Assembly (NCBI GenBank): GCA_016208495.1
Contig: JACQXX010000092.1
Coordinates: 1-64,000 of the forward strand
From: Acidobacteriota bacterium
GTDB taxonomy: Bacteria; Acidobacteriota; Blastocatellia; Chloracidobacteriales; Chloracidobacteriaceae
Direction: 5' to 3'
Length of the DNA: 64,000 nucleotides
The notes under the pieces are model-generated. The model was not told the DNA's origin. It worked only from the letters and a program-made list of their open reading frames with translations, and searched no databases. Both the position numbers and the translations under genes were made by a program. Numbering within the stretch: the stretch's first letter is position 1; each line of letters starts with the position of its first letter. Positions 43,218 through 60,898 of the stretch are shown here, one piece after another.

Positions 43218-43397
43218 AAAGAGGGGGTTCGGGGTTCGGGGTTCGGGGTTCGGGGTTCGGGGTTGGGTTCGGGGTTTTCGAAGGAGGGCGCGGTTCAAAG
43301 CAACAGCGCCTTTACTTCACCCTGTCACGTTGTCACCTTGTCACCCTGTCACTCTGTCACTTTGTCACCCTGTCACTCTGTCACTTTGTCATTCAAA
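43218..43397. repeat. GGGGTTC heptamer array and TGTCACYY octamer array
   Basis: About seven GGGGTTC units (43224-43276) are followed by TTCGAAGG and then, from about 43320, by ten TGTCACYY octamers that enter the 3' end of rsmA. The heptamer end lies at the permease start, so the whole junction between two same-strand genes is repeat DNA. Confidence 0.9.
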
Positions 43398-44206
43398 CAG
43401 GCTGCCAGTCGGGCAAAGTCTTGGACGGAAAGCGTTTCGGCACGCTGTTGTGGGTCAATACCGGCCTGGCGTAGACAGTTGTCGAGTTGCGAACGATCTC
43501 CTGGAATCAGAGCTGCCAGCGCATTGCTCAGGGTCTTGCGCCGCTGGCTAAACGCCGCACTGGCCGTTCGAAAAAACCAGTCTTCGTGTTGTGGAGCAAT
43601 CAGCGGCACGGGCCGAGGAGTGAGTTTGACAATGGATGACCACACCTTGGGGGGTGGAGAAAAGGCACCTGGAGGGACGTCAAACAGATGTTTGATCTCA
43701 CAGTAAGCCTGGAGAATAACCGAAAAATAGCCATAGGTTTTATTTCCTGGCCGGCTGCTAATGCGTTCCACGACTTCACGTTGCAACATCACCGTCATAT
43801 CAGCAAACAAATCGCGATGCGCGACCAGTCGTTCCAAAATCGGAGAGGACAGATTGTAAGGCAGATTGGCGACAACACGCGTCACGGTGGGAGAGAATGT
43901 CAATTCTGTGCAGGCTGAAGTGAGCACCTCAGGGAGATTGCAACTCAAAATATCAGCGTGATGAATCACAAATCGGGTGTTTGAAAAGGTGATCCGAAGA
44001 TAATCCGCCAGTTCTTGATCCAGTTCAACCGCGACCACGCCTCCAGCAACAGTAACCAGTTTCTGAGTCATGGCCCCTCGCCCAGGTCCGATTTCGAGAA
44101 CCAGAGTTTCGCTATCAACACCAGCAGCAGCCACAATTCGATCCACAACACGTTGATCGCGAAGAAAATGCTGGCCAAGGCTTTTACGGGGAGGACGAAA
44201 ATTCAT
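43373..44206 (-). CDS. rsmA: 16S rRNA dimethyladenosine transferase
   Basis: RsmA (KsgA) dimethylates two adjacent adenosines near the 3' end of 16S rRNA late in small-subunit assembly. The 277-residue protein shows the family opening KSLGQHFLRD, AdoMet motif VLEIGPGRGAMTQKL, and catalytic motif NLPYNLSSPI. ATG at 44206 gives the standard N-terminus; the longer frame is translated repeat DNA. The last six codons (NDKVTE) and the stop lie inside the octamer array at 43320-43397, as in the TPR gene at 348-1409. The leader is also repeat DNA. Confidence 0.95.
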   Translation of the reverse strand: MNFRPPRKSLGQHFLRDQRVVDRIVAAAGVDSETLVLEIGPGRGAMTQKLVTVAGGVVAVELDQELADYLRITFSNTRFVIHHADILSCNLPEVLTSACTELTFSPTVTRVVANLPYNLSSPILERLVAHRDLFADMTVMLQREVVERISSRPGNKTYGYFSVILQAYCEIKHLFDVPPGAFSPPPKVWSSIVKLTPRPVPLIAPQHEDWFFRTASAAFSQRRKTLSNALAALIPGDRSQLDNCLRQAGIDPQQRAETLSVQDFARLAACLNDKVTE

Positions 44207-44207
44207 G

Positions 44208-44362
44208 GGCTGAAAAACCTCGGGCTGAGGGCTGAAGAAACCAGGGCTGAAGACTCGCAAGCTCGGGGCTGAAGAAAACGGGCTCAATACCCTTAACCCC
44301 AAGTCTTCAGCCCGACTTCTTCAGCCCTAAGCCCTAAGCCCTAAGCCCTGGTTTGTTCAGCC
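44208..44362. repeat. GGGCTGA / CCCTAAG repeat element
   Basis: Several GGGCTGAAG units at 44208-44280 are mirrored by CTTCAGCCC and CCCTAAG units at 44310-44350, giving an inverted-arm layout between the Rieske gene and rsmA. The rsmA leader would be transcribed from it. Confidence 0.75.
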
Positions 44363-44373
44363 TCAGTCTTCAG

Positions 44374-44676
44374 TTACACTTCGACAAAGACAGCTCCGTC
44401 TTCAACTTTTACCGGAAATGCTTTGATGTCGTCATTGCCCCGAACAACATGGCCCGTACACACATCAAATTTCCACCCGTGGGTGGTACACATCAGCAAG
44501 TTACCTTTCAGGATCCCAGTCACAAGCGGTGCTCCCTGATGCGAGCAGACGTTTTCGACGGCATATACAGTGCCATCAACCTGTACCAGGACAATCGAAG
44601 TCCCGCCAGCAGATACAGCTTTCTTTTTCCCTGGTTCGATTTCATCAACCATTGCAACTTTAATCCATTCTGACAC
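44374..44676 (-). CDS. Rieske [2Fe-2S] ferredoxin
   Basis: A 100-residue Rieske-type electron carrier. The cluster-binding motifs are CSHQG and CTTHGWKFD, giving the Cys-x-His ... Cys-x2-His pattern with about 17 residues between. GTG at 44676 is chosen over the upstream ATG: GGGGGAG lies 5 bases before it and the longer N-terminus is translated repeat DNA. Its size matches ferredoxin components of dioxygenases or NirD-like proteins. No oxygenase subunit is nearby, so its redox partner is unknown. Confidence 0.9.
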   Translation of the reverse strand: MSEWIKVAMVDEIEPGKKKAVSAGGTSIVLVQVDGTVYAVENVCSHQGAPLVTGILKGNLLMCTTHGWKFDVCTGHVVRGNDDIKAFPVKVEDGAVFVEV

Positions 44677-44709
44677 GGGCACTCCCCCTTTATAAATTTC
44701 TTGATTGCA

Positions 44710-44865
44710 AGTGAAGAGAAGACTTCGGATTGAAAATTTCGGGCTCAGGGCGATTGAAGGGATGAGGGATGAGGGATAAAGGATGAAAGAAAACCAATTC
44801 TTCAGCCCCAAGCCCAATGTCTTCAGCCCGCTTTCTTCCGCTCCAAGCCCGAGGATTTTTCAGCC
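44710..44865. repeat. GGATGAG / CTTCAGCCC repeat element
   Basis: GGGATGA units (about 44757-44785) are followed by AAACCAATTCTTCAGCCC and further CTTCAGCCC and AAGCCC units. The arrangement, including GGCGATTGAAGGGATGAG, is closely repeated at 57131-57245 and partly at 46925-47105. It fills the gap between pilT and the Rieske gene. Confidence 0.8.
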
Positions 44866-46632
44866 CTATGAATTGGCATTGCCACCCTGCTGGGCGGAAG
44901 GATTCAGGAATGAAAGGTCCATATTGGCGCGCTTGAGCATGGTTTCGAAATTACCTTTGTCAACCGCCTTCATATAGGCTTCCTGCGGTTCAACAAGCCG
45001 ACGGCGTACCAGATCAAAGAGGGCATCATTGAGGAGCACATTTCCTTTTAGCTTTCCAGTTTGCATCGCCGATTGAATCTGGAAGGTTTTCCCTTCACGA
45101 ATCAGATTGGAAACCCCGGAATCAATGATCAGGACTTCGAGTGCGGCGATACGCCCGCCACCTTTCTTTTTACACAATGTCTGTGCAATGACCCCTTTAA
45201 GTGATTCAGAGAGCATCACCCGGATTTGTGCCTGCCGGTCAGCCGGAAACTGGTCAATGATCCGGTCCACGGTGGACGGTGCGGTTGAAGTATGCAGCGT
45301 TCCAAACACAAGGTGGCCGGTTTCAGCCGTTTCAATCGCAATCGCAATCGTTTCCAGGTCGCGCATTTCGCCGACCAGGACAATATCTGGATCTTCGCGC
45401 AACGCGGCCCGCAACGCATCTTTAAAAGAAGACGTGTGGTTGTGGACTTCGCGCTGGTTAATCAGACACTTTTTGTTTTCGTGGGTAAATTCAATCGGGT
45501 CTTCAATCGTGATGATATGGTCACTCCGGTTGCGATTGACATAGTCAACCATGGCACACAGTGTCGTTGACTTACCGCTTCCGGTCGGGCCAGTAACCAC
45601 CACCAGTCCTTTGGTCAAATAACATAACTTGAGAATTTCAGGCGACAACCCCAGGGTTTCGGCGGTCAGAATTTTGCTTGGAATGACCCGGAACACTCCA
45701 CCCATCCCTTTGCGATCACGAAAGATGTTACAGCGGAACCGCGCGATGGTGCCATACTCATAGGCAAAGTCGGTGTCGTTGCGGCGGCTGAATTCCTCAC
45801 GGTTTTTATCGGGCATCAACTCCCACAGCATCCGTTCGGTGTCCTCTGGCGTGAGGGCATCGGTAAATCCTTCCATGACAACCATATCCCCATCCAGCCG
45901 CAACATTGGCGGCGCAGAGGTGGACAGATGCAGGTCCGACGCTTTGAGATCAAGCTGCTTTTGAAAAAATTTATCCATTTCCAGCGGCCCCTGACGACGC
46001 GGCCCGCTTGTCGTCGTTGGGCGCAAGGTCGGAGGTGAGGAAAATCCACCTGGCGGAGTTGGGGTCCGCGGCTGCATCGGTGGCGGAACCGGCTGCTGTG
46101 AAAAATGCGACGGAGGTTGAGGCGGTGTTGGTAATGGTGTCTGAGGTGGTCGAAAACTCGAAGCGGACGGTGCGGATGGTGGTGCCAGACCACCTGGGGG
46201 TGAGGAAGATGAATAGGCCACGCCACCTGAAGGCGCCGGGGAAGGATAGCCAGAGGGGGCACGTGGCGCAGTGGGTGCTGACATCGGCGGGGGTACCGGC
46301 GCGGGTGCCGTACCAACTGGACCGCCACCCAATGGACGGAACGTCACTTTCATCGCCCCGCCTTCTTTCGATACCGTTACGTCAAACGGGCCGGCGCCGG
46401 AAACATTGACCTGAAACTGGGTCGTCGGCTGACTCATCAGCGCGGCTTTTTTATCCTCCGGAATAATCGGGGACAAGAGCTTAAAAATATCAAATGGACT
46501 CAGTTGTGTTCGAGTCAGGTCAGTAATTCCAGAGGAATTCATGACGATTGGATGTTTCCCAGCTTGCAAAACTAATTGATCCGCTCCAGCCATGCGCGGA
46601 TCACGCAAAAGGCTTTCAATGCTTGCGACCAT
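44866..46632 (-). CDS. pilT: PilT-type twitching motility ATPase with extra N-terminal domain
   Basis: A 588-residue hexameric ATPase of the PilT branch, which powers pilus retraction. The C-terminal 370 residues are the PilT core: LKASDLHLSTSAPPMLRLDG, Walker A GPTGSGKST (Lys354), IEDPIEF, Walker B-like PDIVLVGEMRD, and GHLVFGTLHT. Before it lie about 100 residues of unfamiliar sequence and a Pro/Ala/Ser-rich linker (about 105-220). This is unlike typical PilT proteins of 340-380 residues. ATG at 46632 has GAGGG about 6 bases upstream. No other pilus gene is in the window. Confidence 0.9.
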   Translation of the reverse strand: MVASIESLLRDPRMAGADQLVLQAGKHPIVMNSSGITDLTRTQLSPFDIFKLLSPIIPEDKKAALMSQPTTQFQVNVSGAGPFDVTVSKEGGAMKVTFRPLGGGPVGTAPAPVPPPMSAPTAPRAPSGYPSPAPSGGVAYSSSSPPGGLAPPSAPSASSFRPPQTPLPTPPQPPSHFSQQPVPPPMQPRTPTPPGGFSSPPTLRPTTTSGPRRQGPLEMDKFFQKQLDLKASDLHLSTSAPPMLRLDGDMVVMEGFTDALTPEDTERMLWELMPDKNREEFSRRNDTDFAYEYGTIARFRCNIFRDRKGMGGVFRVIPSKILTAETLGLSPEILKLCYLTKGLVVVTGPTGSGKSTTLCAMVDYVNRNRSDHIITIEDPIEFTHENKKCLINQREVHNHTSSFKDALRAALREDPDIVLVGEMRDLETIAIAIETAETGHLVFGTLHTSTAPSTVDRIIDQFPADRQAQIRVMLSESLKGVIAQTLCKKKGGGRIAALEVLIIDSGVSNLIREGKTFQIQSAMQTGKLKGNVLLNDALFDLVRRRLVEPQEAYMKAVDKGNFETMLKRANMDLSFLNPSAQQGGNANS

Positions 46633-47117
46633 AGCCAACCCTCATTCAAAGTCCACAGCAAGATGCAGGATGCACGGATTCATCTGTGTTGGTGGGCATA
46701 TTGAGGCTCAACCTCTGGATCAGAAGGCTTGATCAAGTACAGTGGCTGATCCAAATGGAAACAAAAACGGCCTCAACCTGCAGTCACCGCAACAAGTGAA
46801 TCGTGAGCGTTTGTGAATATTTTCTTTTTCAGGGAATGAACAACTAACCGAAGTGACAGCCGCTGGCATCTTAGCACAGCATGTAAAGAGGACGTCATGT
46901 GTTTGTTTTGCGTGCTCCGGCAATTTAAAACCTCGGGCTGAAGACCAGGGCTCAGGGCTGAAGTCTCGCAAGCTTCGGGGCACAGAAAGGGATGAAGGAT
47001 GAGGGATGAAAGAAAACCAGTTCTTCATCCCGATAATCTTCCGCCCTCAGCCCCAAGCCCTGGTTTTCTCAGCCCGACTTCTTCAGCCCTGAGCCTAATG
47101 TCTTCCGCTCGACGCCT
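46633..47117. repeat. Intergenic region with GGGCTGA/GGATGAG repeat element
   Basis: No gene is supported. Between 46925 and 47105 there are GGGCTGAAG units, then GGGATGAAGGATGAG, then CTTCATCCC, CCCTCAGCCCC and CTTCAGCCC units. This is the same inverted-arm construction as 44710-44865. The part 46639-46924 shows no clear element. Confidence 0.7.
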
Positions 47118-47459
47118 TTACGAGCGAAAAATGAAGTACACCGCCCCGAGTAAACACAGCCCAGCCCACAAGTAATCTAGTTTCAGCGGTTGCCCCAAAT
47201 AGAAAATTGCAAATGGAGCAAAAATCATCAGCGCAATTACTTCCTGCAAAATTTTGAGTTGGGAAACAGTAAACTCAGTGTGGCCAATCCGATTGGCCGG
47301 AACCTGAATCAAATACTCAAACAGGGCAATTCCCCAGCTAATAAAGGCGGCGATATACCATTTTTTATGGTTCAGGTTTTTGAGGTGACCATACCAGGCA
47401 AAGGTCATAAAGACATTGGAGAGCGCCAGCAACAGCGCGGTTTTCAGCAAAATTGACAT
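47118..47459 (-). CDS. DUF486 (DMT-like) small membrane protein
   Basis: A 113-residue protein with four hydrophobic segments (TALLLALSNVFMTFAWYGHL; WYIAAFISWGIALFEYLI; ILQEVIALMIFAPFAIFYL; LWAGLCLLGAVYFIF). The opening and the VPANRIG motif are typical of DUF486, a relative of the drug/metabolite transporters. It lies 17 bp after dtd on the same strand. The substrate and biological role are unknown. No ribosome binding site stands out. Confidence 0.85.
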   Translation of the reverse strand: MSILLKTALLLALSNVFMTFAWYGHLKNLNHKKWYIAAFISWGIALFEYLIQVPANRIGHTEFTVSQLKILQEVIALMIFAPFAIFYLGQPLKLDYLWAGLCLLGAVYFIFRS

Positions 47460-47476
47460 AGAGCAGAGAAATTCAT

Positions 47477-47935
47477 TTAGGGTTTCAGGGTTTCGGGGTC
47501 TTTTTCAAGCAAGATCGTGACTGGTCCATCATTGTGGATTTCAACTTCCATAAACGCGCCAAACACGCCGGTTTCAACGTGAAGGCCCATTGATTGCAGC
47601 ACTTCGACAAAGAAATCAACCAATTTTGAAGCCTTGTCGGGAGCTTCAGCATCAGTAAACGCCGGGCGGCGTCCTTTGCGAGCATCGCCATAAAGTGTGA
47701 ATTGCGAAATCACGAGTGCCTCTCCCTGAATTTCAAGCAGGGATCGGTTCATTTTTCCCTGGTCATCCTCAAAAATGCGCAGATTGGCAACTTTGTTGGC
47801 CAGCCATTCAGCTTCGGCTCGGGTATCGCCAATTTTGACGCCCAGCAAAATATTGAGGCCGCGACCACAACGACCGACAACCACACCGTCAACCACGACA
47901 GCCGATCTGGTAACTCGTTGAACAACAACACGCAT
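47477..47935 (-). CDS. dtd: D-aminoacyl-tRNA deacylase
   Basis: Dtd removes D-amino acids wrongly attached to tRNA. The 152-residue protein has the normal length, with MRVVVQRVTRSAVVVDG at the start, the active-site motif SQFTLYGD, and the cross-subunit motif NDGPVTI. The C-terminal PETLKP is encoded by GGGTTTC units, another case of repeat DNA at a gene end. It is followed by the DUF486 gene. The ATG has no obvious ribosome binding site. Confidence 0.95.
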   Translation of the reverse strand: MRVVVQRVTRSAVVVDGVVVGRCGRGLNILLGVKIGDTRAEAEWLANKVANLRIFEDDQGKMNRSLLEIQGEALVISQFTLYGDARKGRRPAFTDAEAPDKASKLVDFFVEVLQSMGLHVETGVFGAFMEVEIHNDGPVTILLEKDPETLKP

Positions 47936-47943
47936 AATTTGAA

Positions 47944-48076
47944 GGAGGGTTCAGGGTTCAGGGTTCAGGGTTCAGGGTTCAGGGTTCAGGGTTCAGGGTT
48001 CAGGGTTCAGGGTTCAGGGTTCTTCGAGTGTATTCATTCCTCAACACCAAGCCCTCAGCCCCAAGCCCTCAACCCT
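47944..48076. repeat. GGGTTCA heptamer element
   Basis: About ten to eleven tandem GGGTTCA units (47947-48021) are followed by TTCTTCGAG and then CCCTCAG/CCCTCAA units (48043-48076) that partly pair with the array. It lies between the divergent genes dtd and rpiA. Confidence 0.9.
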
Positions 48077-48200
48077 CTGTTTTGCAGATTGCAGACACAA
48101 AATGACTGCGCTAGGATGCGTGCCAACGCTAGCGAAAAATCACATCCTGTCAATTCTTTTTCACGACTCTCAATTCAACAAATTAAGGATTTTTCCTGTC

Positions 48201-48896
48201 ATGACCACATACAATCCGAAAGAAGTGGCCGGGATTTATGCCGCAAACCTGGTTGCCGAAGGCATGGTTGTCGGCTTAGGAACTGGCTCAACCGCTACAT
48301 TCATGATCAAGCATTTAGGCAAACGAGTCAGCGAAGGGCTGCATATTACGGCCATTCCAACCTCTGAAGCCTCCGCTCAGTTGGCCCAGAGCCTGGGGAT
48401 TCCGCTGGTTGGATTCGGCGAAATTGACCATATTGACATCACCATTGACGGCGCCGATGAAATTGATGGGCGGTTCGACATGCTCAAAGGCGGTGGTGGC
48501 GCGCTCTTGCGCGAAAAAGTCGTGGCGTCGTTGACGAAACGCCAGGTCTGTATTGTTGACCCGATTAAAGTTGTGGAGCAGATGGGCAAGTTTCCGCTCC
48601 CAGTTGAGGTTGTTCCCTTTGGCTGGGAAGTCGTCGCCCATCGCATTACCGCTCTGGGTGGCAAGTACACCTTGCGCCAGACCAAAGAGGCGGAACCGAA
48701 AACCTATGTGACCGACAACGGCAACTACATTCTGGACTGCGATTTTTACCCGATTACTGATGCTCCAGCCCTGGAACGAACCATCAAAATGATGCCCGGC
48801 GTGGTTGAAGTCGGCCTGTTCATCCAGATGGCTCACACGCTCATCATCGGGAATGAAGACGGCACCTGCACTGTGAAAGAAAGAGATAGTCAGTAG
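48201..48896 (+). CDS. rpiA: Ribose-5-phosphate isomerase A
   Basis: RpiA interconverts ribose 5-phosphate and ribulose 5-phosphate in the pentose phosphate pathway. The 231-residue protein shows the phosphate-binding GLGTGSTATF, the catalytic region DGADEIDGRFDMLKGGGGA, and FPLPVEVVPFGW. ATG at 48201 has AAGGA about 11 bases upstream and gives the normal length; the longer frame is rejected. The last residues (DSQ) and stop TAG lie within AGTCAGTAG, the first heptamers of the element that follows. Confidence 0.95.
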   Translation: MTTYNPKEVAGIYAANLVAEGMVVGLGTGSTATFMIKHLGKRVSEGLHITAIPTSEASAQLAQSLGIPLVGFGEIDHIDITIDGADEIDGRFDMLKGGGGALLREKVVASLTKRQVCIVDPIKVVEQMGKFPLPVEVVPFGWEVVAHRITALGGKYTLRQTKEAEPKTYVTDNGNYILDCDFYPITDAPALERTIKMMPGVVEVGLFIQMAHTLIIGNEDGTCTVKERDSQ

Positions 48897-49099
48897 TTGA
48901 TAAGTCAGTAGTCAGTAGATAAAACCCGGATAGTTAAATCTGTGGAATTCTTGAAAAGAATTGTCCCTAAATGACTCAAATAGAACCAAATACACTTGAC
49001 AGGCAATTCAAAATCCCAACACTCGACTACTGACTACTGACTACTGACTACTGACTACTGACTACTGACTACTGACTACTGACTACTGACTACTGACTA
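48888..49099. repeat. AGTCAGT heptamer element, copy 2 (inverted)
   Basis: In this orientation a short AGTCAGTAG arm with GTTGATAAGTCAG spacers (48888-48918) precedes the core (about 48919-49025), which is followed by about 10.5 ACTGACT units (49026-49099). The core is the reverse complement of copies 1 and 3, with scattered differences. It supplies the stop codon of rpiA and ends about 25 bp before the glyA start. Confidence 0.92.
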
Positions 49100-49123
49100 A
49101 ATTTTTGAGGAAGGCACACCACA

Positions 49124-50425: not shown

Positions 50426-50440
50426 CCACGCCAGAAAAAA

Positions 50441-50473
50441 TGGAGCAAGGTGTCACCAAAACACCTTGCTCCA
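50441..50473 (-). terminator. 13-bp hairpin between glyA and the patatin gene
   Basis: TGGAGCAAGGTGT (50441-50453) pairs perfectly with 50461-50473. On the plus strand no T-run follows. On the minus strand ATTTTTTC follows, so it is a textbook intrinsic terminator for that strand, although no minus-strand gene lies just upstream. It may also stabilise the glyA 3' end. Confidence 0.6.
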
Positions 50474-50489
50474 CAGACGGAGTCACGCA

Positions 50490-51380: not shown

Positions 51381-51399
51381 CCCAGGAGGTGAAAATACA

Positions 51400-52407: not shown

Positions 52408-54618
52408 ATGGGCGATTACCTTCGCTGGGCATGCTGGCAATTGTTTCTCATTTTCTTTCAGCCGTCGCGGTTTGATCGTGAGGTAGCAGGCGATGGAGTT
52501 GAAAAGCCAACGATGTCTTTCAAGGAGCGTGTTTTCTATGTGGGGAAAATGGCTCCAGTTATGACAGCAATTGTCTTTGGGGGAAATCTGCTGATTGGTT
52601 TAGCTTGCGAGGCATATGGAATTAATTATGACTGGTTAAGATCCTGGCTATTTGCTTTTGGATGTGTGGCGGGTGGCTTGGCAGTTGGCTTGGCGGGTGG
52701 CTTGGCGGGTGGCTTGGCAGCTGGCGTGGAGAGTGACGTGGCGGGTGGCGTGGCGTCCGACGTGGCGTTTGGCTTGGTGGGTGGCTTGGTGTTTGGCCTG
52801 GCGTCCAACATGGCGAATGGCGTGGCGTCCGACGTGGCATCTTGCGTGATGTTTGGCGCGGCGGTTGGCGTGATAGTTGGCGTGATGGATAGCGTGGTGT
52901 TTGGCGTGATGGTTGGCGTGATGGATGGTGTGATAACTGGCGTGGCGGTTAGCGTGGCGTCTATCTTGGGTTATTTTAGATTCATAACGTACCCCATCAA
53001 TGCTGCACTTTCGACCACTGCTTATTTCAAAGCCAACCGAAATCCTCAAACTGCTTTTCGTGCCTGGCGATGGTGCCCCATTTCCTGGAATGAAGTGATC
53101 TGGCTGCCTTTGCCATATCTGAGCGACCTGTTGGTGTTGATGACCAAACAGCACCGTGAAGAGGGTTTTCGTCAAATCGCCTTTGTTGCGGCTGAACGCA
53201 CATTACAACGCCGTGCGGTACTTTCGGCACTGGCTGAAATTGCAGTCAGTGATTTGCAGGCCAAAACTCCGCAGGAACTGGCCAGTATTTCCGAGACGCT
53301 CAAGTGGACAACCAATGCTCCGGCAGAGTTACCGAAAGAATTGACCGAAGCCCTGCCGCAATTTGATCGAATCGCACAGCAAGTTGGTCAATCTATTGAA
53401 CTTCGTTCCCAAAATCGTAAACGGAAGGCGCTTGACCAGGCGCTGTCCGAACTCCAATCACTCCAAAAAAGCTTGATTGTGACTCGTGGAAAACTGGTGC
53501 CACGATTGCTGCAAGTCGCCAATGAATGGCAGGCACTCATCAAAGCTAGTCGTCAGGCGCTCCAGTCTGACATCGAAGCCAGAGGTGAAATCCCCAACCC
53601 GTTTGTCTTTGGAACCCCGGTGACCGAATCTGAATACAATGTTTTCACCGGGCGTCAGGACATCGTCGGTCATATCGAAGAATCCCTCCTCAATGCTGCA
53701 AATCTGCCCACCCTGCTGCTCTTTGGCCCACGACGAATGGGAAAAACCAGTATTTTGAATCAACTCCCACGGTTGCTGGGGCCCGATTTTGCGCCGGCAA
53801 TGGTTGATTGTCAGGCGCCAGCCGTGCGGGAAAGCGCCAACGCATTGCTCCGGTATATTTCAGAGGCGATGAGCGAAGCGTTGCAACGCCGCCGAATTCT
53901 GATTGACCCGCTTTCGGTTGAAGCGCTGAAAAGCGAACCGTTCGGGTTTTTTGAGAAATGGTTGACCAACGTTGAGAAAGCCCTCCCCGAACAAATGCGG
54001 GTGCTCCTGTGTCTGGATGAATATGAACGGCTACAAACGGCGCTTGATGCCGGATGGGGTGCGGACGTGCTTGATTTGCTCCGAAATACCTTTCAGCATC
54101 GGCGGCGCATCGCGATGATGTTTACCGGAGCGCATCGTTTTGCCGAACTTGGTCCCGCCTGGACGGATCGGTTTATCAGTGCGCGAAATATCCGCGTGAG
54201 CTTTCTCAAACCTGACGAAGTTGTACCGCTTCTGACCAAACCAATTCCTGATTTTGATATGACATATGCCGATGGAGCGCTTGAAGGCATTATTTCAGCG
54301 ACGAACGGACAGCCTTTTCTCATTCAAGGAATCGGCTTTGAACTGGTGCAGTTTATGAACGAAGGCAAACGGAAACAGGCGACTATCGCCGATGTCGAAG
54401 AAGCCATTTCACGCACGCTTTCGAGCGGCGATGCCTACTTTTTCAATGTCTGGAGTGATGCAGGCGAAGACGGACAGGCAATTTTGCAGGCAATCGCGAC
54501 CAGTTCACCGGTTCCAAATTTCCCGAAAGCCATGCGCTGGCTCAAAGACCACGACGTTTTGACCACCGAAGGGCGCTTCGCCGTGCCAATAGTCGAACGG
54601 TGGGTTAAGACCATTTAG
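52408..54618 (+). CDS. Membrane STAND-like ATPase with tetrapeptide repeats
   Basis: A 736-residue protein. After an N-terminal region with hydrophobic stretches, residues 87-182 consist of 24 tandem four-residue units of the form (L/V)-(A/M/V)-x-(G/D/S/N), such as LAGG, VASD, VMVG. This makes a long small-residue hydrophobic, probably membrane-embedded, segment. A middle part with helices (about 200-400) precedes a C-terminal ATPase: FTGRQDIV, Walker A FGPRRMGKTS (Lys446), Walker B VLLCLDEYERL (Asp537), and a sensor MMFTGAHRF. The layout fits a sensor ATPase tied to a membrane effector. The ATG at 52408 lacks a clear ribosome binding site; Met at 52513 is an alternative. The stop TAG overlaps the following GGGTTCA array. 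Confidence 0.8.
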   Translation: MGDYLRWACWQLFLIFFQPSRFDREVAGDGVEKPTMSFKERVFYVGKMAPVMTAIVFGGNLLIGLACEAYGINYDWLRSWLFAFGCVAGGLAVGLAGGLAGGLAAGVESDVAGGVASDVAFGLVGGLVFGLASNMANGVASDVASCVMFGAAVGVIVGVMDSVVFGVMVGVMDGVITGVAVSVASILGYFRFITYPINAALSTTAYFKANRNPQTAFRAWRWCPISWNEVIWLPLPYLSDLLVLMTKQHREEGFRQIAFVAAERTLQRRAVLSALAEIAVSDLQAKTPQELASISETLKWTTNAPAELPKELTEALPQFDRIAQQVGQSIELRSQNRKRKALDQALSELQSLQKSLIVTRGKLVPRLLQVANEWQALIKASRQALQSDIEARGEIPNPFVFGTPVTESEYNVFTGRQDIVGHIEESLLNAANLPTLLLFGPRRMGKTSILNQLPRLLGPDFAPAMVDCQAPAVRESANALLRYISEAMSEALQRRRILIDPLSVEALKSEPFGFFEKWLTNVEKALPEQMRVLLCLDEYERLQTALDAGWGADVLDLLRNTFQHRRRIAMMFTGAHRFAELGPAWTDRFISARNIRVSFLKPDEVVPLLTKPIPDFDMTYADGALEGIISATNGQPFLIQGIGFELVQFMNEGKRKQATIADVEEAISRTLSSGDAYFFNVWSDAGEDGQAILQAIATSSPVPNFPKAMRWLKDHDVLTTEGRFAVPIVERWVKTI
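52666..52953 (+). repeat. 12-bp coding tandem repeat (24 units)
   Basis: Within the membrane ATPase gene, a degenerate 12-base unit close to GGCGTGGCGnnT is repeated 24 times and encodes the tetrapeptides. Third positions and the variable third residue differ, but the period is kept throughout without any frame loss. Confidence 0.9.
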
Positions 54619-54649
54619 GGTTCAGGGTTCAGGGTTCAGGGTTCAGGGA
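54616..54649. repeat. GGGTTCA array
   Basis: About four and a half GGGTTCA units begin at the stop codon TAG of the membrane ATPase gene (TAGGGTTCAGGG). It lies between that gene and the convergent esterase. Confidence 0.85.
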
Positions 54650-54767
54650 AATCCAGTTTTTCCAATCAACTCCCGATGTGGTTTTTCGATTTGCACCTCG
54701 AAGAGTTGCCGTTCGGATGCTCAAATCTGCTTTTGAAACCACACCTGTTCATGTGATGAAATGGATT

Positions 54768-55724
54768 TCACTTCTTCACGGCCTTCCAGCAACAGGTAAA
54801 GGCTGGCTCACCGCGACTCAACAGAAAGCTCCAGCCGTGGTTGCCGGGCGCAAGTGTGAATTCATGTTCCACGCCGGCATCGGTCAGAATCTGATTCAGG
54901 AGCTTGTTGCCGACGTCAAATCCGTAGCGGTCTTCGCTTCCCACATCAAAATAAATTTTCAGTTTTTTGAGCTTCGCGGCATTGGTTTTGGCCAGGTAGA
55001 GCGGATTGTTTTCCTGGAAAAATGAGGTATCCGGCGGGTTACCATAGAGTTCGGTGGCGATTTTGTAGCGGTACTGACCACGCATATCCGACACCGAAGC
55101 TGGTGGTTTTGGCGATTCTTCAAAAAGCGCCGCGCAGTGGGTTACGACGCCGGAAAAGAGTTCCGGGTGCTTGAAGGCAATCAGGAGCGCCCCGTAGCCG
55201 CCCATTGAAATCCCTTCGATCAAACGATGCTCAGGTTTGGCAATCGTCCGAAAACTCTTATCAACAAAGGGGATAAAGTCTTTTACAATCGCGTCTTCAT
55301 ACCGTACGCCGCTTTTGCTGTTGATGTAAAAGCTGTTTTCGCCATACGGCATGGCGACGATGTATTCGCCCACCTTGCCGGCGGTGCGCAATTCCTGCAA
55401 CTTGGCTTCAATCCCACGACCTTCCCAATCCCGCTCTGAGTTAAACAACCCATGCAGAAAAATCACCACTGGATAGCGGCGTGATTTGTCCTGGTCATAC
55501 GAAGCCGGTAACGAAACGGCGTAGTTGACGGCTCGACCAAGGCTGGCCGACTGAAAGGTGGCATATTCAACCCGGCCACGGGCGGCAGAAGGTTTTGTTT
55601 CTCCGCCCGGCGCCGGCCCAACCGCAGGTGCTTGTTGGCCGGTTACGGCACAGGTGGAGCAAAAAACAACGGCGCAAACCATTGAAAAGACAGAGAAAAT
55701 CGGCTGCCAGACAAACAACTTCAT
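54768..55724 (-). CDS. Exported esterase (esterase D / tributyrin esterase type)
   Basis: A 318-residue alpha/beta hydrolase. An N-terminal signal sequence (IFSVFSMVCAVVFCSTCAV) precedes a linker. The hydrolase domain shows FLHGLFNSERDW (oxyanion side), nucleophile GISMGGYGA with Ser173, an acid residue in DVGSEDRYGFD, and the catalytic His in APGNHGW. This places it near the S-formylglutathione hydrolase/esterase D and feruloyl-esterase-like families, but export argues for an envelope or secreted esterase. AAGGAG lies about 10 bases before the ATG. It stands alone, divergent from the ATP synthase cluster. The natural substrate is unknown. Confidence 0.85.
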   Translation of the reverse strand: MKLFVWQPIFSVFSMVCAVVFCSTCAVTGQQAPAVGPAPGGETKPSAARGRVEYATFQSASLGRAVNYAVSLPASYDQDKSRRYPVVIFLHGLFNSERDWEGRGIEAKLQELRTAGKVGEYIVAMPYGENSFYINSKSGVRYEDAIVKDFIPFVDKSFRTIAKPEHRLIEGISMGGYGALLIAFKHPELFSGVVTHCAALFEESPKPPASVSDMRGQYRYKIATELYGNPPDTSFFQENNPLYLAKTNAAKLKKLKIYFDVGSEDRYGFDVGNKLLNQILTDAGVEHEFTLAPGNHGWSFLLSRGEPAFTCCWKAVKK

Positions 55725-56029
55725 TCAGGTGTTTCTCCTTAATACAGATATGAATAACGTGGAGAGATGCGGATGTGAAGCGATCTTGAGAGAACGAAGA
55801 TTTTTCCAAAGTTGCCCAAATTTTGATTGAACTGGACCGCGAAAGTCCAACCGCTTTCACTGGTCCTCAGACTTGCCTGAGCGTTCAAAATATCGAGCCT
55901 TCCAAAAACAAGGCATTTTGGGAATCAGGCGCTCTGGGGTTTTGACCCAGGTTGACTGAAAGTTGAGCGAACCCTCAAGCCAAGTGCTGCAAATGCTTTT
56001 ACTTATCCACGCTGAAAAGGACTCTGTCC

Positions 56030-56058
56030 TTGACACTCCTACCCCGCTATGCTATCAA
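56030..56058 (+). promoter_or_regulatory. Probable promoter of the ATP synthase cluster
   Basis: A perfect TTGACA (56030-56035), a 17-base spacer, and TATCAA (56053-56058) lie about 70 bp upstream of the first gene. The rest of the 55725-56127 gap shows no gene; an imperfect GGACC...GGTCC hairpin lies at about 55833-55865. Confidence 0.6.
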
Positions 56059-56127
56059 CGCTCTTCTTTTTAGGACCCGTTTCATCCCTCATACTTTTCC
56101 GTCTCTAAAGGTTGAACCTCATTCGCT

Positions 56128-56610
56128 ATGATAGACGCATGCCTATTACCTCAACTTCTGCTTTTCGCCGAATTGTTGAGCGTTGACTATTCTCTCGTCG
56201 TTATCATCGTCCTTTTCATTGTTTTAGCGGTTCTGCTCAACAGCCTGATCTTCAATCCGATCCTGAAAGTGCTCGAAGAGCGGGAACGCCTGACCAGCGG
56301 TTCCATCAGCGGTGCCCGGCACCTGCTCGAAGAATACGACCGCCGGCTCAAAGACTATGAATCGGCACTTAAAGATGCGCGCCTTGTGGCCTATGAACAG
56401 ATGGAAAAACATCGTTCAGCCGCAATGAAGGAACGCACTGATATGCTTAACACCGTGCGTGCCGAAACCACGGCTGACATTGCCAAGGCCAAGAGTGAAA
56501 TCGAAGCTCAGGTCAAGAAAGCCCGCACGGCACTTGAAAAAGATGCCTCGGTGATGGCCGCCACGATTTCGACCTCAATTCTTGGTCGTCAAGTTGGAGG
56601 TCCACGATGA
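56128..56610 (+). CDS. ATP synthase F0 subunit b-type (b')
   Basis: A 160-residue peripheral-stalk subunit. One N-terminal membrane helix (LVVIIVLFIVLAVLLNSLIF) is followed by a long charged coiled coil (PILKVLEERERLTSGSISG onward). It sits directly before a second b-type gene with a 4-base overlap, so the two probably form a b/b' heterodimer that joins F1 to F0. The first ATG lacks a near ribosome binding site. Subunits a and c are not upstream in this window. Confidence 0.85.
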   Translation: MIDACLLPQLLLFAELLSVDYSLVVIIVLFIVLAVLLNSLIFNPILKVLEERERLTSGSISGARHLLEEYDRRLKDYESALKDARLVAYEQMEKHRSAAMKERTDMLNTVRAETTADIAKAKSEIEAQVKKARTALEKDASVMAATISTSILGRQVGGPR

Positions 56611-57131
56611 TGTTTCCTCTCTTAACCAGCCTGTTCGCCTCAATCGAACTCCTCTCCTCAATGCCGCTTGGCTATCGCTTTATCAACTTTGCCATTTTTG
56701 CGATTGCACTTGGGGCGGTTCTCTATAAACCACTCACGCAGGGGTTGCAGGCCCGCGCCAATTCAATCGAGGAAGAACTTCAGCGAGCTGGAAAAGAAAT
56801 CGCTGCCGCCGAAGCCAAAATGAAAGAGTTAGATACCCGTATCAGCCGACTTGATGACGAAATCAACAACATCAAGCAGCAAGCTGAACGCGATGCCAAA
56901 GCTGAGCGCGAACGAATTGCACAAACCACCAAAGAAGATGCCGAACGGTTGCGCGCGATGGCCCGCCTTGAAATTGAAGGTGCGATGAAAGCGGCCCGGA
57001 CTGAACTCCGGGCATTTACCGCCTCGCAGGCAGTCGAAATGGCAGAAGCAATCATCCGGCGTGAGTTGAAAGACGCTGACCGCGATCAACTGGTTACTCG
57101 CTATGTTGACCGCATGGAGCGGGTGAACTGA
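56607..57131 (+). CDS. atpF: ATP synthase F0 subunit b
   Basis: A 174-residue peripheral-stalk subunit with one N-terminal hydrophobic helix (YRFINFAIFAIALGAVLY) and a long alpha-helical coiled coil (EEELQRAGKEIAAAEAKMKE). It overlaps the preceding b' gene by ATGA, indicating translational coupling and a near one-to-one ratio. It is followed by a repeat element and not directly by atpH. Confidence 0.9.
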   Translation: MMFPLLTSLFASIELLSSMPLGYRFINFAIFAIALGAVLYKPLTQGLQARANSIEEELQRAGKEIAAAEAKMKELDTRISRLDDEINNIKQQAERDAKAERERIAQTTKEDAERLRAMARLEIEGAMKAARTELRAFTASQAVEMAEAIIRRELKDADRDQLVTRYVDRMERVN

Positions 57132-57250
57132 TTGGGGGCTTGGGCGATTGAAGGGATGAGGGATGAGGGATGAAATAAAACCAATTCTTCAGCCCAATGT
57201 CTTCAGCCCTGAGCCCTGAGCCCGATGTCTTCAGCCCGAGAAAAAGGTCT
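57131..57250. repeat. GGATGAG / CTTCAGCCC element inside the ATP synthase cluster
   Basis: Between atpF and atpH. GGCGATTGAAGGGATGAG and further GGGATGA units are followed by AAACCAATTCTTCAGCCC, CCCTGAG units and CTTCAGCCC. It is a close copy of the element at 44710-44865. Confidence 0.85.
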
Positions 57251-57274
57251 TCATTTCCACGAACTGAGTTATTT

Positions 57275-57817
57275 ATGAGCATTACCGCCCTTGCCAATCG
57301 TTATGCCCGTGCTTTGGTTGATGTGACTGCGGCCAAAGGCGAAATGAAAGAAGTGTTTACTGAGATCAGCGCGTTTCAGACCCTGGTCGCCACCCACGCC
57401 GAACTCCACGAAGTCGTGGTCAATCCAACAATTCCCCAAAACCAGAAAGAAGTGCTGCTGGTCACGCTGACCACCCGCATGAAGCTGCGCCCGACAACGG
57501 TGAATTTCCTGAGTCTACTGCTGCGCAATCAGCGTCTGGCCTATTTAGGTGAAATTGTGGAGGCATTACGACGCGAAATTGACATTCGGACCAATGTGGT
57601 CGCCGCCGATGTCACCACCGCTGGCGCCCTGGCTGAAACCCAAAAAGTCACGATTGAAAAACGCCTCCAGCAAGTCACCGGAAAAGCCGTTCGGATCAAC
57701 TACACGGTGGATCCAACGATTATCGGAGGTGTGGTCTCACGGATTGGAAGCCGCATTTATGACGGCTCAATTCGCAATCAGTTAGACAGCTATCGCACAG
57801 CTCTGAGCCAAAACTAG
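57275..57817 (+). CDS. atpH: ATP synthase F1 subunit delta
   Basis: A 180-residue subunit that links F1 to the peripheral stalk. The family opening ITALANRYARALVDV and the C-terminal GGVVSRIGSRIYDGSIRNQL are clear. ATG at 57275 is chosen because the longer frame translates repeat DNA. No good ribosome binding site is seen, which may reflect the repeat lying just upstream. Followed by repeat DNA before atpA. Confidence 0.93.
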   Translation: MSITALANRYARALVDVTAAKGEMKEVFTEISAFQTLVATHAELHEVVVNPTIPQNQKEVLLVTLTTRMKLRPTTVNFLSLLLRNQRLAYLGEIVEALRREIDIRTNVVAADVTTAGALAETQKVTIEKRLQQVTGKAVRINYTVDPTIIGGVVSRIGSRIYDGSIRNQLDSYRTALSQN

Positions 57818-58149
57818 AGAATGAAGAATGTGGTTAGTGGTTAGTTTTTAGTGCCTGGTTCTTGGTTCTTCTTCGAAAGTATTGATTTCTAATCACTAAT
57901 CACTAATCACTAAAAGGGTTCTTCATTCTTAAGCTGGTGCATGTGTTGATCTGAGTTGGGTTTCACACAGGGGATTGTGTTTGGATAGAGCGATTTTCTT
58001 TTCCACGCATTCATTTTTTCAGGGGATTCCCCTCATCCTCACCTCCAGACACTCTTTTGGTGAGCACCACTCATCGCCAATGCCCGGTAAAACGATGTTA
58101 GTTTTTTTGAATTGAATTATTTGCGGGATTTCCCTGACAGGAAGAAACT
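57818..58149. repeat. AATCACT repeat element between atpH and atpA
   Basis: GGTTAGT units (about 57831-57848), a core containing TTCTTCGAAAGTATTG, and three AATCACT units (57891-57912) form an inverted-type layout. The 25 bp at 57868-57892 are the exact reverse complement of 34044-34068. From 57930 to 58149 I see only the atpA leader, with AGGAAG before its start. Confidence 0.75.
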
Positions 58150-59682
58150 ATGGAACCAATTAAAGCGGACGAAATTAGCCAGATAATTCGCCAACAGATT
58201 GAAAACTTCCAGGTGGGAGTAACGGTTTCTGAGGTTGGCACGATCATCAAAGTCGGTGACGGAATCGCTGAAATCCACGGCCTGGAGCGCGCCATGGCCG
58301 GCGAATTGCTCGATTTACCCAACAACGTAAAAGGCATTGCCCTCAACCTTGAAGAAGACAAGGTCGGGGCGGTGTTGTTTGGTGATTACTACACGATTAA
58401 ACAGGGCGACCTGGTCAAGCGCACCGGACGCATCATGTCAGTCCCGGTCGGTGACGCCATGATCGGTCGGGTGGTCAACGCCCTTGGCGAACCAATTGAT
58501 GGTCGCGGCCCGATTGCCAATGACGGGTTTAACCCCATTGAGCGCATCGCCCCTGGGATCGTGGACCGCAAAGGGGTGAAAGAGCCAATGCAGACCGGTC
58601 TCAAAGCCATTGACTCGCTGGTGCCGATTGGTCGCGGACAACGCGAACTCATCATCGGTGACCGCCAGACCGGAAAAACCGCCGTCGGGCTTGATACCAT
58701 TATCAACTCCAAAGGCAAAAATCTGATCTGCGTCTACATCGCCATCGGTCAGAAAAAATCAACTGTGGCCCAGGTGGTGAAAAAGCTCGAAGAGCACGAC
58801 GCAATGTCATACACCGTCATTGTGTCAGCCGGCGCTTCGGACCCGGCGGCCATGCAGTACATTGCGCCGTACTCGGGCTGTGCCATCGGGGAATACTTTA
58901 TGGATCGCGGCAAACACGTGCTGTGCATCTATGACGATCTTTCAAAACACGCCGTCGCGTATCGCGAAATCTCCCTGTTGCTGCGCCGTCCGCCCGGACG
59001 TGAAGCCTATCCTGGGGACGTGTTTTACCTGCACTCACGCCTGCTGGAGCGCGCGGCCAAATACAGTGATGAAAAAGGCGGCGGCTCATTGACAGCCCTG
59101 CCGATCATTGAAACCCAGGCCGGCGACATCTCGGCGTACATTCCAACCAACGTGATTTCAATCACTGATGGTCAGATCTTCCTCGAAGCCGACCTCTTTA
59201 ACGCCGGGGTCCGACCCGCCATCAACGTCGGTCTGTCGGTTTCCCGCGTGGGAGGAAACGCCCAGATCAAAGCCATGAAGCAGGTCGCCGGAACACTCCG
59301 CCTCGAACTGGCCCAGTACCGCGAACTTGCCGCCTTCGCCCAGTTTGGCTCCGACCTTGACAAAGCCACCCAGCAACAGTTGGCTCGTGGTCAGCGCCTG
59401 ACGGAAATCCTCAAACAGCCGCAATATGTACCAATGCCGGTTGAAAAGCAGGTCTTTCTGGTGTGGGCCGCCACGGGTGGTCACGTGGATGAAATTCCCG
59501 TGGCTGAACTCCGTCGGTTTGAGACCGAGTTGATGTCCTTCCTGGATAACAGCAAGTCTTCACTGCTCAAGAAAATTCTGGACAAGAAGGAATTGACCGG
59601 CGAGATCAAGGATGAAATGAAGGCAGCCATTGACGAGTTCAAGAAGACCTTCACCGTTCGCGGCCAGGCAGCAAAAGCCTAA
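58150..59682 (+). CDS. atpA: ATP synthase F1 subunit alpha
   Basis: A 510-residue F1 alpha subunit of normal length. It has the N-terminal beta-barrel ([20 protein letters not shown]), the P-loop [11 protein letters not shown] (Lys176), and the signature [14 protein letters not shown] with the arginine that contacts the catalytic site on beta. AGGAAG lies 6 bases before the ATG. The stop TAA is followed directly by GAATGAA repeats. Confidence 0.97.
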
Positions 59683-59768
59683 GAGAATGAAGAATGAAGA
59701 ATGAAGAATGAAGAAACCATTCTGTTTTTTCTTTCTTCATTCTCAATTCTCAATTCTTCATTCAGACA
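59683..59768. repeat. GAATGAA ... TTCATTC inverted heptamer element
   Basis: Four GAATGAA units (from about 59685) are mirrored by TTCATTC/TCAATTC units (59741-59762) around a short T-rich core, so the transcript could fold into a hairpin. It lies between atpA and atpG. Confidence 0.85.
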
Positions 59769-59806
59769 TGGCTTAACCCTTATTCATCACACAGAAATAA
59801 AAAGCT

Positions 59807-60727
59807 ATGCCAAATTTACAGGGTGTCAGGCGACGAATTAAGGCGGTGCGCAGCATGCGCCAGATCACCAAAGCGATGAAACTGGTGTCTACCTCGCGCT
59901 TGAAACGTGCGCAGGATCGAGTAACCGCAGCGCGCCCATACTCCAGGAAAATGACCGAAGTGCTTGAAAATCTGGCTTCACGGACCACCGGGTTTTCGAG
60001 TCCACTGTTAGAACAACGCACCGGAAACCGGGTCTTGCTGGTCCTGGTGACTGGCGATAAAGGGTTATGCGGTGCGTTTAACACCAACCTGATCCGGGCG
60101 GCCAACCTCTTCATCCGTGAAAATCCGGATGCCCACATCGAACTGGTGGCCATCGGACGCAAAGGCCGGGATTTCTTCCGGCGACGCAACATCAAAATTC
60201 GCAAGGAATATATCGGCATCACAGCCAAAGCGGTCACGTATGAGATTGCTGCCGAGATTGCCCACGAAGTAGTCGAGATGTTTAGTGGCAGTTCAACCGA
60301 AACGCTTGAAGAAGCGGCTGAAAAAACCGAATTTGAAACTCCAGATAAAGTCGTTCTGATTTATAATGAGTTCAAATCCGTCATTCAGCAGGTTGTTCGA
60401 ACCGAACAACTCCTGCCAATCGGACGCTTTACCGAAACGACCGATGAGGGGCAAGGAGGTTCGGATTCAAGCACTGACTATCTCTATGAGCAGCCACCAG
60501 CCGAAATTTTCACCCGGCTGCTTCCCCGCTACATTGAAACCCAGATGTTTCAGGCCCTGCTTGAATCAGTGGCATCCGAACATGGTTCCCGGATGACCGC
60601 CATGGACTCCGCCAGCAAGAACGCCACCGAGGTGATTAACAAGCTGACGCTGAACATGAACCGCATCCGTCAGGCAGCCATCACCAACGACATCATCGAA
60701 GTGGTCAGCGGCGCGGCAGCACTTTAG
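59807..60727 (+). CDS. atpG: ATP synthase F1 subunit gamma
   Basis: A 306-residue rotor shaft subunit. The family hallmarks are the N-terminal VRRRIKAVRSMRQITKAMKL and the C-terminal SRMTAMDSASKNATEVINKL. A segment near residues 165-185 (SGSSTETLEEAAEKTEFETP) and an acidic Ser-rich stretch (TTDEGQGGSDSSTDYL) are slightly extended compared with the E. coli protein. No beta or epsilon gene follows; these must lie elsewhere in the genome. No ribosome binding site is obvious. Confidence 0.95.
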   Translation: MPNLQGVRRRIKAVRSMRQITKAMKLVSTSRLKRAQDRVTAARPYSRKMTEVLENLASRTTGFSSPLLEQRTGNRVLLVLVTGDKGLCGAFNTNLIRAANLFIRENPDAHIELVAIGRKGRDFFRRRNIKIRKEYIGITAKAVTYEIAAEIAHEVVEMFSGSSTETLEEAAEKTEFETPDKVVLIYNEFKSVIQQVVRTEQLLPIGRFTETTDEGQGGSDSSTDYLYEQPPAEIFTRLLPRYIETQMFQALLESVASEHGSRMTAMDSASKNATEVINKLTLNMNRIRQAAITNDIIEVVSGAAAL

Positions 60728-60729
60728 GA

Positions 60730-60898
60730 CCGGGTTCAGGGTTCAGGGTTCAGGGTTCAGGGTTCAGGGTTCAGGGTTCAGGGTTCAGGGTTCAGGGTTC
60801 AGGGTTCAGGGTTCAGGGTCTTCGAACTTTTGTCCTTTTCGTCTTTTTTGTCCTTTATGTCTTTTAAACCCTGGACCCTGAAACCCTGAACCCTTACC
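60730..60898. repeat. GGGTTCA heptamer element with inverted arm
   Basis: About 12.5 GGGTTCA units (60732-60819), a core with TTCGAAC and GTCCTTT-type units, and an inverted arm of CCCTGAA units (60866-60895). It follows atpG. Confidence 0.9.

Follow-up and report, generated by a model that had tools for sequence, protein, structure and literature searches.

Seven-base tandem repeats often form inverted arms in intergenic gaps of an Acidobacteriota genome and often carry different seeds in the same gaps of a related genus

The intergenic arrays considered here come from a window of 64 kb, that is, the whole stretch of DNA that was analyzed, which lies on contig C92 of an 8.38-Mb, 177-contig draft genome of an Acidobacteriota bacterium of the Blastocatellia (G000). 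They appear to be hairpins with two inverted arms, each arm a tandem array of a 7-bp unit (the seed), packed against the ends of neighboring genes. A different word is often found in the same gap of a related genus, which suggests that the gaps are being rewritten in seven-base steps. The anatomy and orientation of such arrays have already been published for one motif; what is new is the presence of many seeds, their replacement at orthologous slots, and arms without cores.

The G000 sample (41 sources, 768,979 bases) was compared with 346 kb of G001, a member of the same family but of another, sister genus, with 334 kb of the genome G026, with smaller samples of the genomes G003 (40 kb), G010 (127 kb), and G023 (120 kb), and with 79 further loci (1.18 Mb), mostly from Acidobacteriota. 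Sampling of the genomes was non-random, mostly covering the initial 20 kb of contigs, and genes are crude calls of the longest open reading frames (ORFs). Perfect arrays in these samples have at least three copies and at least 14 matched bases at periods of 2–30; as the 14-base minimum also holds for periods below 7, repeats with short units need more than three copies. Under this definition, period 7 accounts for 134 of the 162 arrays in G000, 70 of 87 in G001, and 14 of 21 in G026. The other G000 arrays include 18 of period 8, the second commonest, and four of period 9, and in G001 12 of the 87 arrays have period 9. For instance, G001 regions L142:12038-12250 and L268:5449-5527 contain 9-bp GACTCCCAA arrays within or replacing GGGTTCA hairpins. 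Among the smaller samples, G003 contains no arrays, G010 a single one of period 21, and G023 three, two of them of period 7.

The same period leads in the 79 further loci, where the imperfect intergenic arrays of periods 7, 14, 8, and 9 number 23, 9, 5, and 4, respectively (33, 15, 5, and 11 if coding DNA is included), and Markov-resampled versions of these loci yield no period-7 arrays. Another survey, of loci in other genomes, gave 19 period-7 arrays of 22; eight came from L001, which is the same record as G001, and 11 of 14 remain without it. Other periods were thus not equally common, either in the three genomes or in the further loci. The predominance of period 7 thus characterizes the clade and reaches further than it, matching the literature on bacteria: heptamers were over-represented or most abundant among long bacterial simple repeats in a 2007 survey, as cited in PMC4692102 and PMC4679880, both of which also hand on the guess that seven nucleotides is the length of polymerase contact, and some of the most abundant bacterial satellite families stem from heptamers and hexamers in a survey of prokaryotes (PMC6749651).

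The period-7 arrays are mostly intergenic (121 of 134 in G000, 46 of 70 in G001, and 10 of 14 in G026, allowing an ORF overlap of up to 7 bp), and many of them face an inverted partner. With one mismatch allowed in 13 bases and a reach of 200 bp, 70 of the 168 intergenic G000 arrays have such a partner, against 40 of 451 in a null in which seeds were swapped between loci. The corresponding numbers are 51/69 against 18/162 in G001, 14/15 against 3/38 in G026, 16/23 against 10/54 in the genome G002, whose set was picked because of its AGTCAGT arrays, and 16/23 against 1/59 in the 79 other loci. Thus inverted partners exceed the seed-swap null in all five sets. Perfect arrays of periods 8 and 9 are partnered less often than heptamers: five of 24 and none of five, respectively, in G000, and none of one and four of 13 in G001, counted without an intergenic filter. 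Direct partners, for which the counts are raw and have no null, involve 22 of 134, 17 of 70, and one of 14 arrays in G000, G001, and G026, forming 16, 13, and 0 pairs.

The arms have a strong polarity. Counted by partnered arrays rather than by pairs, the G-rich strand reads inward in 69 cases against none in G000 (one tie), 50 against one in G001, 16 against none in G002, and 12 against four in the 79 loci; G026 is balanced (7:7). Counted by pairs, the polarity is the same in 43 of 43 in G000 and 31 of 32 in G001, and divides as three against three with two ties in G026. Relative to the closest gene end, arrays read away in 151 cases and toward it in 23 in G000, and in 54 and 19 cases, respectively, in G001; this count leaves out arrays inside ORFs (15 in G000 and 13 in G001) and two far ones. 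Three whole hairpins fold with z-scores between -5.7 and -6.2, among them that of the atpA-atpG gap (59684..59763; RNA fold of -32.9 kcal/mol, z = -5.72).

Occupancy depends on the type of gap. Among G000 gaps of 20–1500 bp, arrays are present in 100 of 302 co-directional, 21 of 76 convergent, and 12 of 78 divergent ones, and in none of 100 gaps shorter than 20 bp. Array nucleation at stop codons was considered and rejected: the run takes in the stop in only six of 62 and nine of 35 cases, and the starts are scattered along the gap.

The same gaps tend to be occupied in both genera. Among 14 hand-paired orthologous gaps, six of nine that bear arrays in G000 are also occupied in G001, compared with none of five array-free ones (p = 0.031); a seventh of the nine has a 9-bp array in G001 where G000 has a heptamer hairpin. 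The 14 slots were picked by hand from 40 rows as co-linear, with the same gene orientation, at least 35% identity of both neighbors, and one row per slot. Two rows that also satisfy these rules were left out. Inclusion of L081 16710 versus L154 10290, a case in which one set of G001 genes has matches at several unrelated places of G000, gives 6/10 versus 0/5 (p = 0.044), and substitution of L099 899 versus L155 for L099 6335 (L099 has two similar gene pairs) gives 6/8 versus 0/6 (p = 0.0097).

In the six shared slots the seed classes differ wholly in four and partly in a fifth. Slot L097 14733 has GAATGAA and a TCAATTC-class arm in G000 and the TCAATTC class only in G001. Downstream of atpG, GGGTTCA is kept in both genera, with two extra arrays in G001. 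In three slots both arms were seen in both genomes, and both differ: the G000 and G001 seeds are AGAATGA and AGGACTG between atpA and atpG, AGTCAGT and GAATTGA between rpiA and the serine hydroxymethyltransferase (SHMT) gene, and GGGTTCG and GGACTGA in the third. The atpA-atpG gap was also followed through 83 loci, nine of which, including one labelled Nitrospirota (L074), have 7-bp arrays of at least two copies with differing seeds; the median length of the array-free gaps is 16.5 bp. Two pairs of these loci, L012/L125 and L055/L127, share spacers and are probably the same genomes; of the nine array-bearing loci, L030 and L078 have no clean complementary arms, and heptamer arms seen by eye in L024 were not counted.

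The sequence-only reading of the window had taken the seeds for unrelated sequences, and this does not hold. The seeds of the G000 sample form a one-substitution network, in which 26 of 28 classes lie one substitution from another class, while 300 letter-permuted sets average 13.4 such classes and reach 22 at most. The top five classes hold 90 of the 134 G000 arrays, and the AGGACTG class alone has 22 arrays in the G001 sample. Seeds without GGG or CCC make up 60 of the 134 G000 arrays by a hand count, and AGGACTG and GAATTGA of G001 belong here too; the G-quadruplex-type motifs GGGNATC or GGGGAYT are not matched by the G000 and G001 seeds as a class. A G-quadruplex was therefore rejected as the general cause. 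A T-N-A step occurs in 19 of the 29 seed classes of a larger G000 sample, compared with 10.3 expected; it is also enriched in G026 (eight of ten classes, p = 0.01) and, less clearly, in G001 (10 of 18, p = 0.07). The 79 other loci show no enrichment (four of eight).

The cores between the arms behave differently in different families. In G001, trimmed cores between exact-seed arms are never more alike than the shuffled maximum (0 of 45 pairs for AGGACTG, 0 of 15 for GAATTGA, 0 of 6 for GGGTTCA), and only three AGGACTG pairs and none of the others exceed the 95th percentile of shuffles. At the other extreme is an element of G000, here called E2, in which AGTCAGT arms surround a conserved core. 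It has nine copies in 893 kb of G000 and at least 15 genome-wide, counting the window copy, with cores 90–95% identical to the latter; an E2 stretch folds at z = -2.5 and its core alone at -0.7. AGTCAGT arrays were found in nine of 57 relatives. No match to the E2 core came from any of the 57 (in G001, G013, and G040 only 15 of the 17–29 candidates were scored), and 20 AGTCAGT stretches of relatives from three genomes, compared by eye, have other cores and the same orientation. The GGGTTC hairpins of G000 have partly common cores, including a 9-bp repeat. We rejected the idea that the cores are degenerate palindromes, as their folding z-scores (24 and 23 cores) are no lower than in intergenic controls without arrays.

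A second dispersed element, M1, is about 105 bp long with the ends TACCAG/TGGTA, has at least 40 copies in G000, and contains an inner array of three to about five units of GTAGTCA, always in the same place. Its flanks are identical over 3 bp in 22 of 30 copies (TAA 13, TTA 6, TCA 2, TGA 1), compared with a mean of 10.3 and a maximum of 17 in shuffled sets, and we take M1 for an ordinary miniature inverted-repeat transposable element (MITE). The triplet pattern of these flanks resembles the T-N-A step of the seeds, which is a likeness only. The copies examined (L196-L225, 30 in number; for example, L088:5170-5310) have single units with point changes. In L216, M1 lies between GTGGTTA arms, and in L215 within a GTGGTTA array. 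Around the hairpins themselves no target duplication was detected: for k = 2, 3, 4, 5, 8, and 9 the flanks are within the shuffled range (23 and 24 pairs).

Equal seeds around unrelated cores in many slots would mean that the arms have dispersed independently of the cores or that something acting in trans keeps them constant. An old insertion of whole elements could hardly leave this pattern, because drift would have scrambled the seeds as well. The best mechanism, which we advance tentatively, combines seven-nucleotide slippage inside the arms with template switching that spreads them. Within an arm, strand slippage would multiply, shrink, and homogenize the units, each arm largely on its own; this part is suggested by the variable length of perfect arrays and the weak agreement of the arms at fine scale. 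Template switching from similar arrays elsewhere, and then across the hairpin, would supply a slot with its seed or exchange the seed of both arms. For both arms of one slot to change their seed, either a new pair would have to be inserted or one arm copied from the other across the hairpin. Template switching would copy arms and not cores; the observations behind this are equal arms around unrelated cores for two G001 seeds and the differing seeds of orthologous slots. Part of the seed repertoire probably also rides on ordinary dispersed elements, E2 with its conserved core and the MITE M1 with its inner GTAGTCA array, and the arrays may persist where extra DNA is tolerated, that is, after stops, before starts, and least between divergent genes. 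If arms do spread without cores, this would be a dispersal of repeats beyond slippage alone or classical MITE transposition.

Several observations weigh against slippage with template switching. No change in length, change of seed, or empty site was directly observed, the 57 relatives containing no genome of the same genus as G000. In the GGGTTCN hairpins, the variable base agrees weakly between arms (cosine 0.603 versus 0.492 in shuffled data, p = 0.075, 23 G000 loci; the seven G001 loci are uninformative), so copying between arms would be rare or old, and after a replacement each arm seems to slip alone. In G000 the cores of the AGTCAGT hairpins are clearly homologous (10 of 10 pairs), as would be expected if entire elements had moved. 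When pairing was loosened and the cores were left untrimmed, 32 of 41 G000 cores and 16 of 32 G001 cores match another core at E < 1e-3, in G000 mainly within the GGGTTC and AGTCAGT families and in G001 among six GGGTTCA-type hairpins and ten AGGACTG rows. We tentatively read the ten AGGACTG matches as array remnants and overlapping rows. Since the looser test also matched GGGTTCA-type cores in G001, the case for arms without cores rests on AGGACTG and GAATTGA; the common GGGTTCA cores of G001, together with the partly common seed at one slot, slightly lower the odds of slippage with template switching and slightly raise those of transposition. Finally, the inward G-rich orientation is not predicted by slippage or template switching alone, and it speaks more strongly than anything else for a signal or for a strand-specific process.

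Transposition of foldback or MITE-like elements is a possible though doubtful alternative. The heptamer arms would be terminal inverted repeats for a trans-acting transposase, the cores passengers, and the seeds families preferring the same slots. Foldback elements of Drosophila have arms of short tandem repeats and unlike cores, and the anatomy of the hairpins recalls them. The dispersal of E2 and M1 in G000 and the partly common GGGTTC-type cores, in G000 and in six cases in G001, speak for such an origin, and the duplicated flanks of M1 imply that MITE transposition has happened in this genome. However, the chance-level likeness of the AGGACTG and GAATTGA cores in G001 does not fit, and transposition becomes less likely for the hairpins as a class with the absence of target duplication and of any link to Y1 transposases. 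In a search confined to the Y1 family of transposases, 16 genes were examined and no 7-bp array lay within 600 bp of the match in any of them, and we rejected a REP-associated tyrosine transposase (RAYT/Y1; REP, repetitive extragenic palindrome) as the motor. These genes comprise all nine G000 matches and seven G001 genes holding eight of the 11 G001 matches, with short flanks at L265 (5 bp to the right) and L257 (283 bp to the left). We likewise rejected autonomous elements in the form of genes enclosed by inward-facing arms: no credible transposase gene lies between inward arms in G001, and the three G000 rows correspond to two ORFs of 96 and 101 amino acids.

Selection on signals is another alternative, which we regard as rather unlikely. 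The hairpins would act in RNA or DNA at gene junctions, as protection of mRNA 3' ends, in the segmentation of operons, or as sites of a heptamer-binding protein, and selection would keep the seed, the inverted order, and the orientation. The near-absolute orientation in G000, G001, and G002, the preference for reading away from gene ends, the stable folding of the three whole hairpins, and the low use of divergent gaps all agree with this. On the other hand, seeds differ between genera at orthologous slots, 98 of the 168 G000 arrays lack a partner within 200 bp, orientation is balanced in G026, and the genes adjoining arrays in the window are of mixed function. No Rfam family was matched above the gathering score in window 41000-64000, and a G-quadruplex role cannot be general, given the many G000 arrays whose seeds lack GGG and CCC.

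A common mechanism behind all the arrays, as the sequence-only reading had proposed, is possible and compatible with the data: neither of the two outcomes named there as refuting it, other periods being equally common or inverted arms being no more frequent than by chance, was observed. Spread has nevertheless taken two forms or more, E2 with its core and the G001 arms with cores alike at chance level. A further reading, which seems to us quite improbable, is a dedicated enzyme or repair pathway that would act at gene junctions, copy a seven-nucleotide word in tandem into both arms around any spacer, G-rich strand inward, and overwrite the word genome-wide when the dominant seed changes. Arms rather than cores would then be inherited, and a single type of process would lie behind the heptamers of Xanthomonas, Nostoc, and Acidobacteriota. 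Chance or an assembly artefact can be practically dismissed: the genome is a draft of 177 contigs, and four of 48 contig starts lie in a 7-bp array, so long arrays do break the assembly, but a reversed control pattern has no matches against 932, Markov-resampled loci contain no period-7 arrays, and the same anatomy is seen in other genomes.

Among known systems, the short tandemly repeated repetitive (STRR) sequences of cyanobacteria are heptamer tandem arrays with several seeds per genome, and the arrays described here are like them in both respects; we know of no arms facing a core in STRR sequences. The sequence-only reading had drawn this parallel and considered the inverted arms to be the difference. 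The likeness stands, but inverted arms are not new: the G-rich heptameric intergenic repeats of Xanthomonas (GGGNATC; the Nostoc motif is GGGGA(C/T)T) include 70 convergent inverted pairs of one heptamer in Xcc and 75 in Xac (Rehm et al. 2015, PMC4692102). The same paper describes few such pairs for Nostoc and mentions three heptanucleotides of Calothrix. A dominant 7-bp unit, mostly intergenic and dispersed, with convergent inverted pairs, is common to the Xanthomonas repeats and ours. So is the placement of the G-rich strand, in sense direction near stops or in antisense direction near starts, which holds in G000 and G001 (the partnered arrays of G026 divide 7:7). Two further traits are comparable: in Xanthomonas divergent gaps are under-represented, and 83% of repeats keep their gene context in the second species. 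The differences lie in the seeds and the load. As far as the cited parts of PMC4692102 go, there is one motif type per genome, common to both Xanthomonas species, whereas here 28 seed classes occur in 769 kb, seeds differ at orthologous slots, many lack GGG, and 100 of 302 co-directional gaps are occupied.

The TAACTGA repeats of Beggiatoaceae (MacGregor 2015, PMC4679880), of which 169 sets are direct and one is indirect, lie for the most part shortly before gene starts. They are similarly intergenic heptamer tandem arrays scattered over phyla, but in the cited parts of that paper they are a single motif, with related heptamers rarely or never repeated. The BrickBuilt MITE of Porphyromonas gingivalis (PMC4596501) resembles M1 in being intergenic with a tandem array inside; its 23-bp units form an internal array, while in the hairpins the arrays form the arms. 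The GTAG/CGTC REPs and TIRYT elements (Di Nocera et al. 2013, PMC3733652) are likewise dispersed palindromic intergenic repeats, and Y1 transposases flanked by terminal inverted repeats were reported there in Acidobacteria; in contrast, none of the 16 Y1 genes examined here is near a heptamer array. In the best-ranked open-access literature we found no case of many interchanging seeds in inverted arms, of seed differences at orthologous slots, or of such arrays in Acidobacteriota. The heavy load, the many seeds, and the differing seeds of both arms at orthologous slots make period, seed choice, and inversion separable and measurable.

The arrays of the window are listed in Table 1. Those pointed out in the sequence-only reading are present where it placed them, to about ten bases. 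Counting perfect runs whose match extends at least 12 bases, or 1.5 units, past the unit (periods 2–24), the window has 18 of period 7 (641 matched bases), four of period 8, three of period 9, and one each of periods 6, 12, and 15. Many of the arrays had also been said to have an inverted arm. With 11 or 12 of 12 bases required within 250 bp, this is true of four of the 11 listed places besides AGTCAGT (60732, 59684, 57889, and 44323); the seven others (43224, 41389, 44758, 46990, 47946, 54617, and 57152) score 8–10 of 12. In 720 trials with random 500-bp stretches of the window, a score of 11 of 12 was reached 22 times. Here inverted arms are thus above chance, yet limited to a minority of the listed places, and the wider sample shows a clear excess.

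Table 1. Heptamer arrays, hairpins, and E2 copies of the window (copy number follows the bracketed unit)
Feature	Position	Strand or orientation	Structure	Inverted partner and remarks
Hairpin, atpA-atpG gap	59684..59763		(AGAATGA)4.6 arm (=GAATGAA) 59684-59715, short core, TTCATTC/TCAATTC arm from ~59729	11/12
Hairpin downstream of atpG	60732..60894		(GGGTTCA)12.6 arm 60732-60819 (as AGGGTTC), 9-bp-repeat core 60827-60866, AACCCTG arm 60867-60894	12/12
Arms in atpH-atpA gap	57830..57913		GTGGTTA-type arm 57830-57853 and (CTAATCA)3.6 arm (=AATCACT) 57889-57913	11/12
Arms	44207..44349		GGGCTGA-type copies and (AGCCCTA)3.9 arm (=CCCTAAG) 44323-44349	11/12
Arms in atpF-atpH gap	57152..57239		(AGGGATG)3.1 (=GGATGAG) 57152-57173 and (AGCCCTG)2.7	Arms partly complementary; 9/12, under threshold
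Array	47946..48022	+	(AGGGTTC)11.0 (=GGGTTCA)	Degenerate partner at 48064; 10/12, under threshold
Array	54617..54648	+	(AGGGTTC)4.6 (=GGGTTCA)	No inverted partner; overlaps end of ORF 52408-54618
Imperfect array	43224..43276	+	(GGGGTTC)7.9	No clear inverted partner
Mixed array	41389..41426	+	TCAATTC/TTCATTC	Single arm; placed at 41380 by the sequence-only reading
Imperfect array	44758..44786	+	(AGGGATG)4.1 (=GGATGAG)	No clear inverted partner
Weak array, 85%	46990..47010	+	(GGATGAA)3	Placed at 46980 by the sequence-only reading
E2	48887..49099	minus	AGTCAGT copies, ~113-bp core, (GACTACT)10.7	Between rpiA-like and SHMT genes
E2	62778..63041	plus	(TAGTCAG)14.7, core, interrupted ACTACTG arm	
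E2, truncated by contig start	1..233		(AGTCAGT)15.6, core, short ACTGACT arm	

According to Pfam matches and gene order, the neighboring genes in the window encode subunits of ATP synthase (two b subunits, delta, alpha, and gamma, that is, atpF, atpF, atpH, atpA, and atpG), SHMT, and a ribose-5-phosphate isomerase (rpiA-like). In a comparison of atpG, Blastocatellia bacterium SSF51 is the closest relative with a name (70% identity, locus L001). With some of the G000 contig starts examined falling inside 7-bp arrays, the real copy numbers of long arrays may exceed those in the assembly.

Repeats of other periods are also present in the window. Arrays of 8-bp units of the TGTCACCC type lie at 282-366 and 43317-43391. 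An imperfect 12-bp tandem repeat at 52666-52956 belongs to ORF 52408-54618, which has an AAA ATPase domain, and is therefore coding, unlike the heptamers. Finally, an ORF at 17674-18462 with a weak match to a Y1 transposase (25 bits) is followed by a perfect 9-bp array, TGTCCGCCC in eight copies, and is flanked by an inverted repeat, forming a 9-bp analogue of the heptamer arrays.

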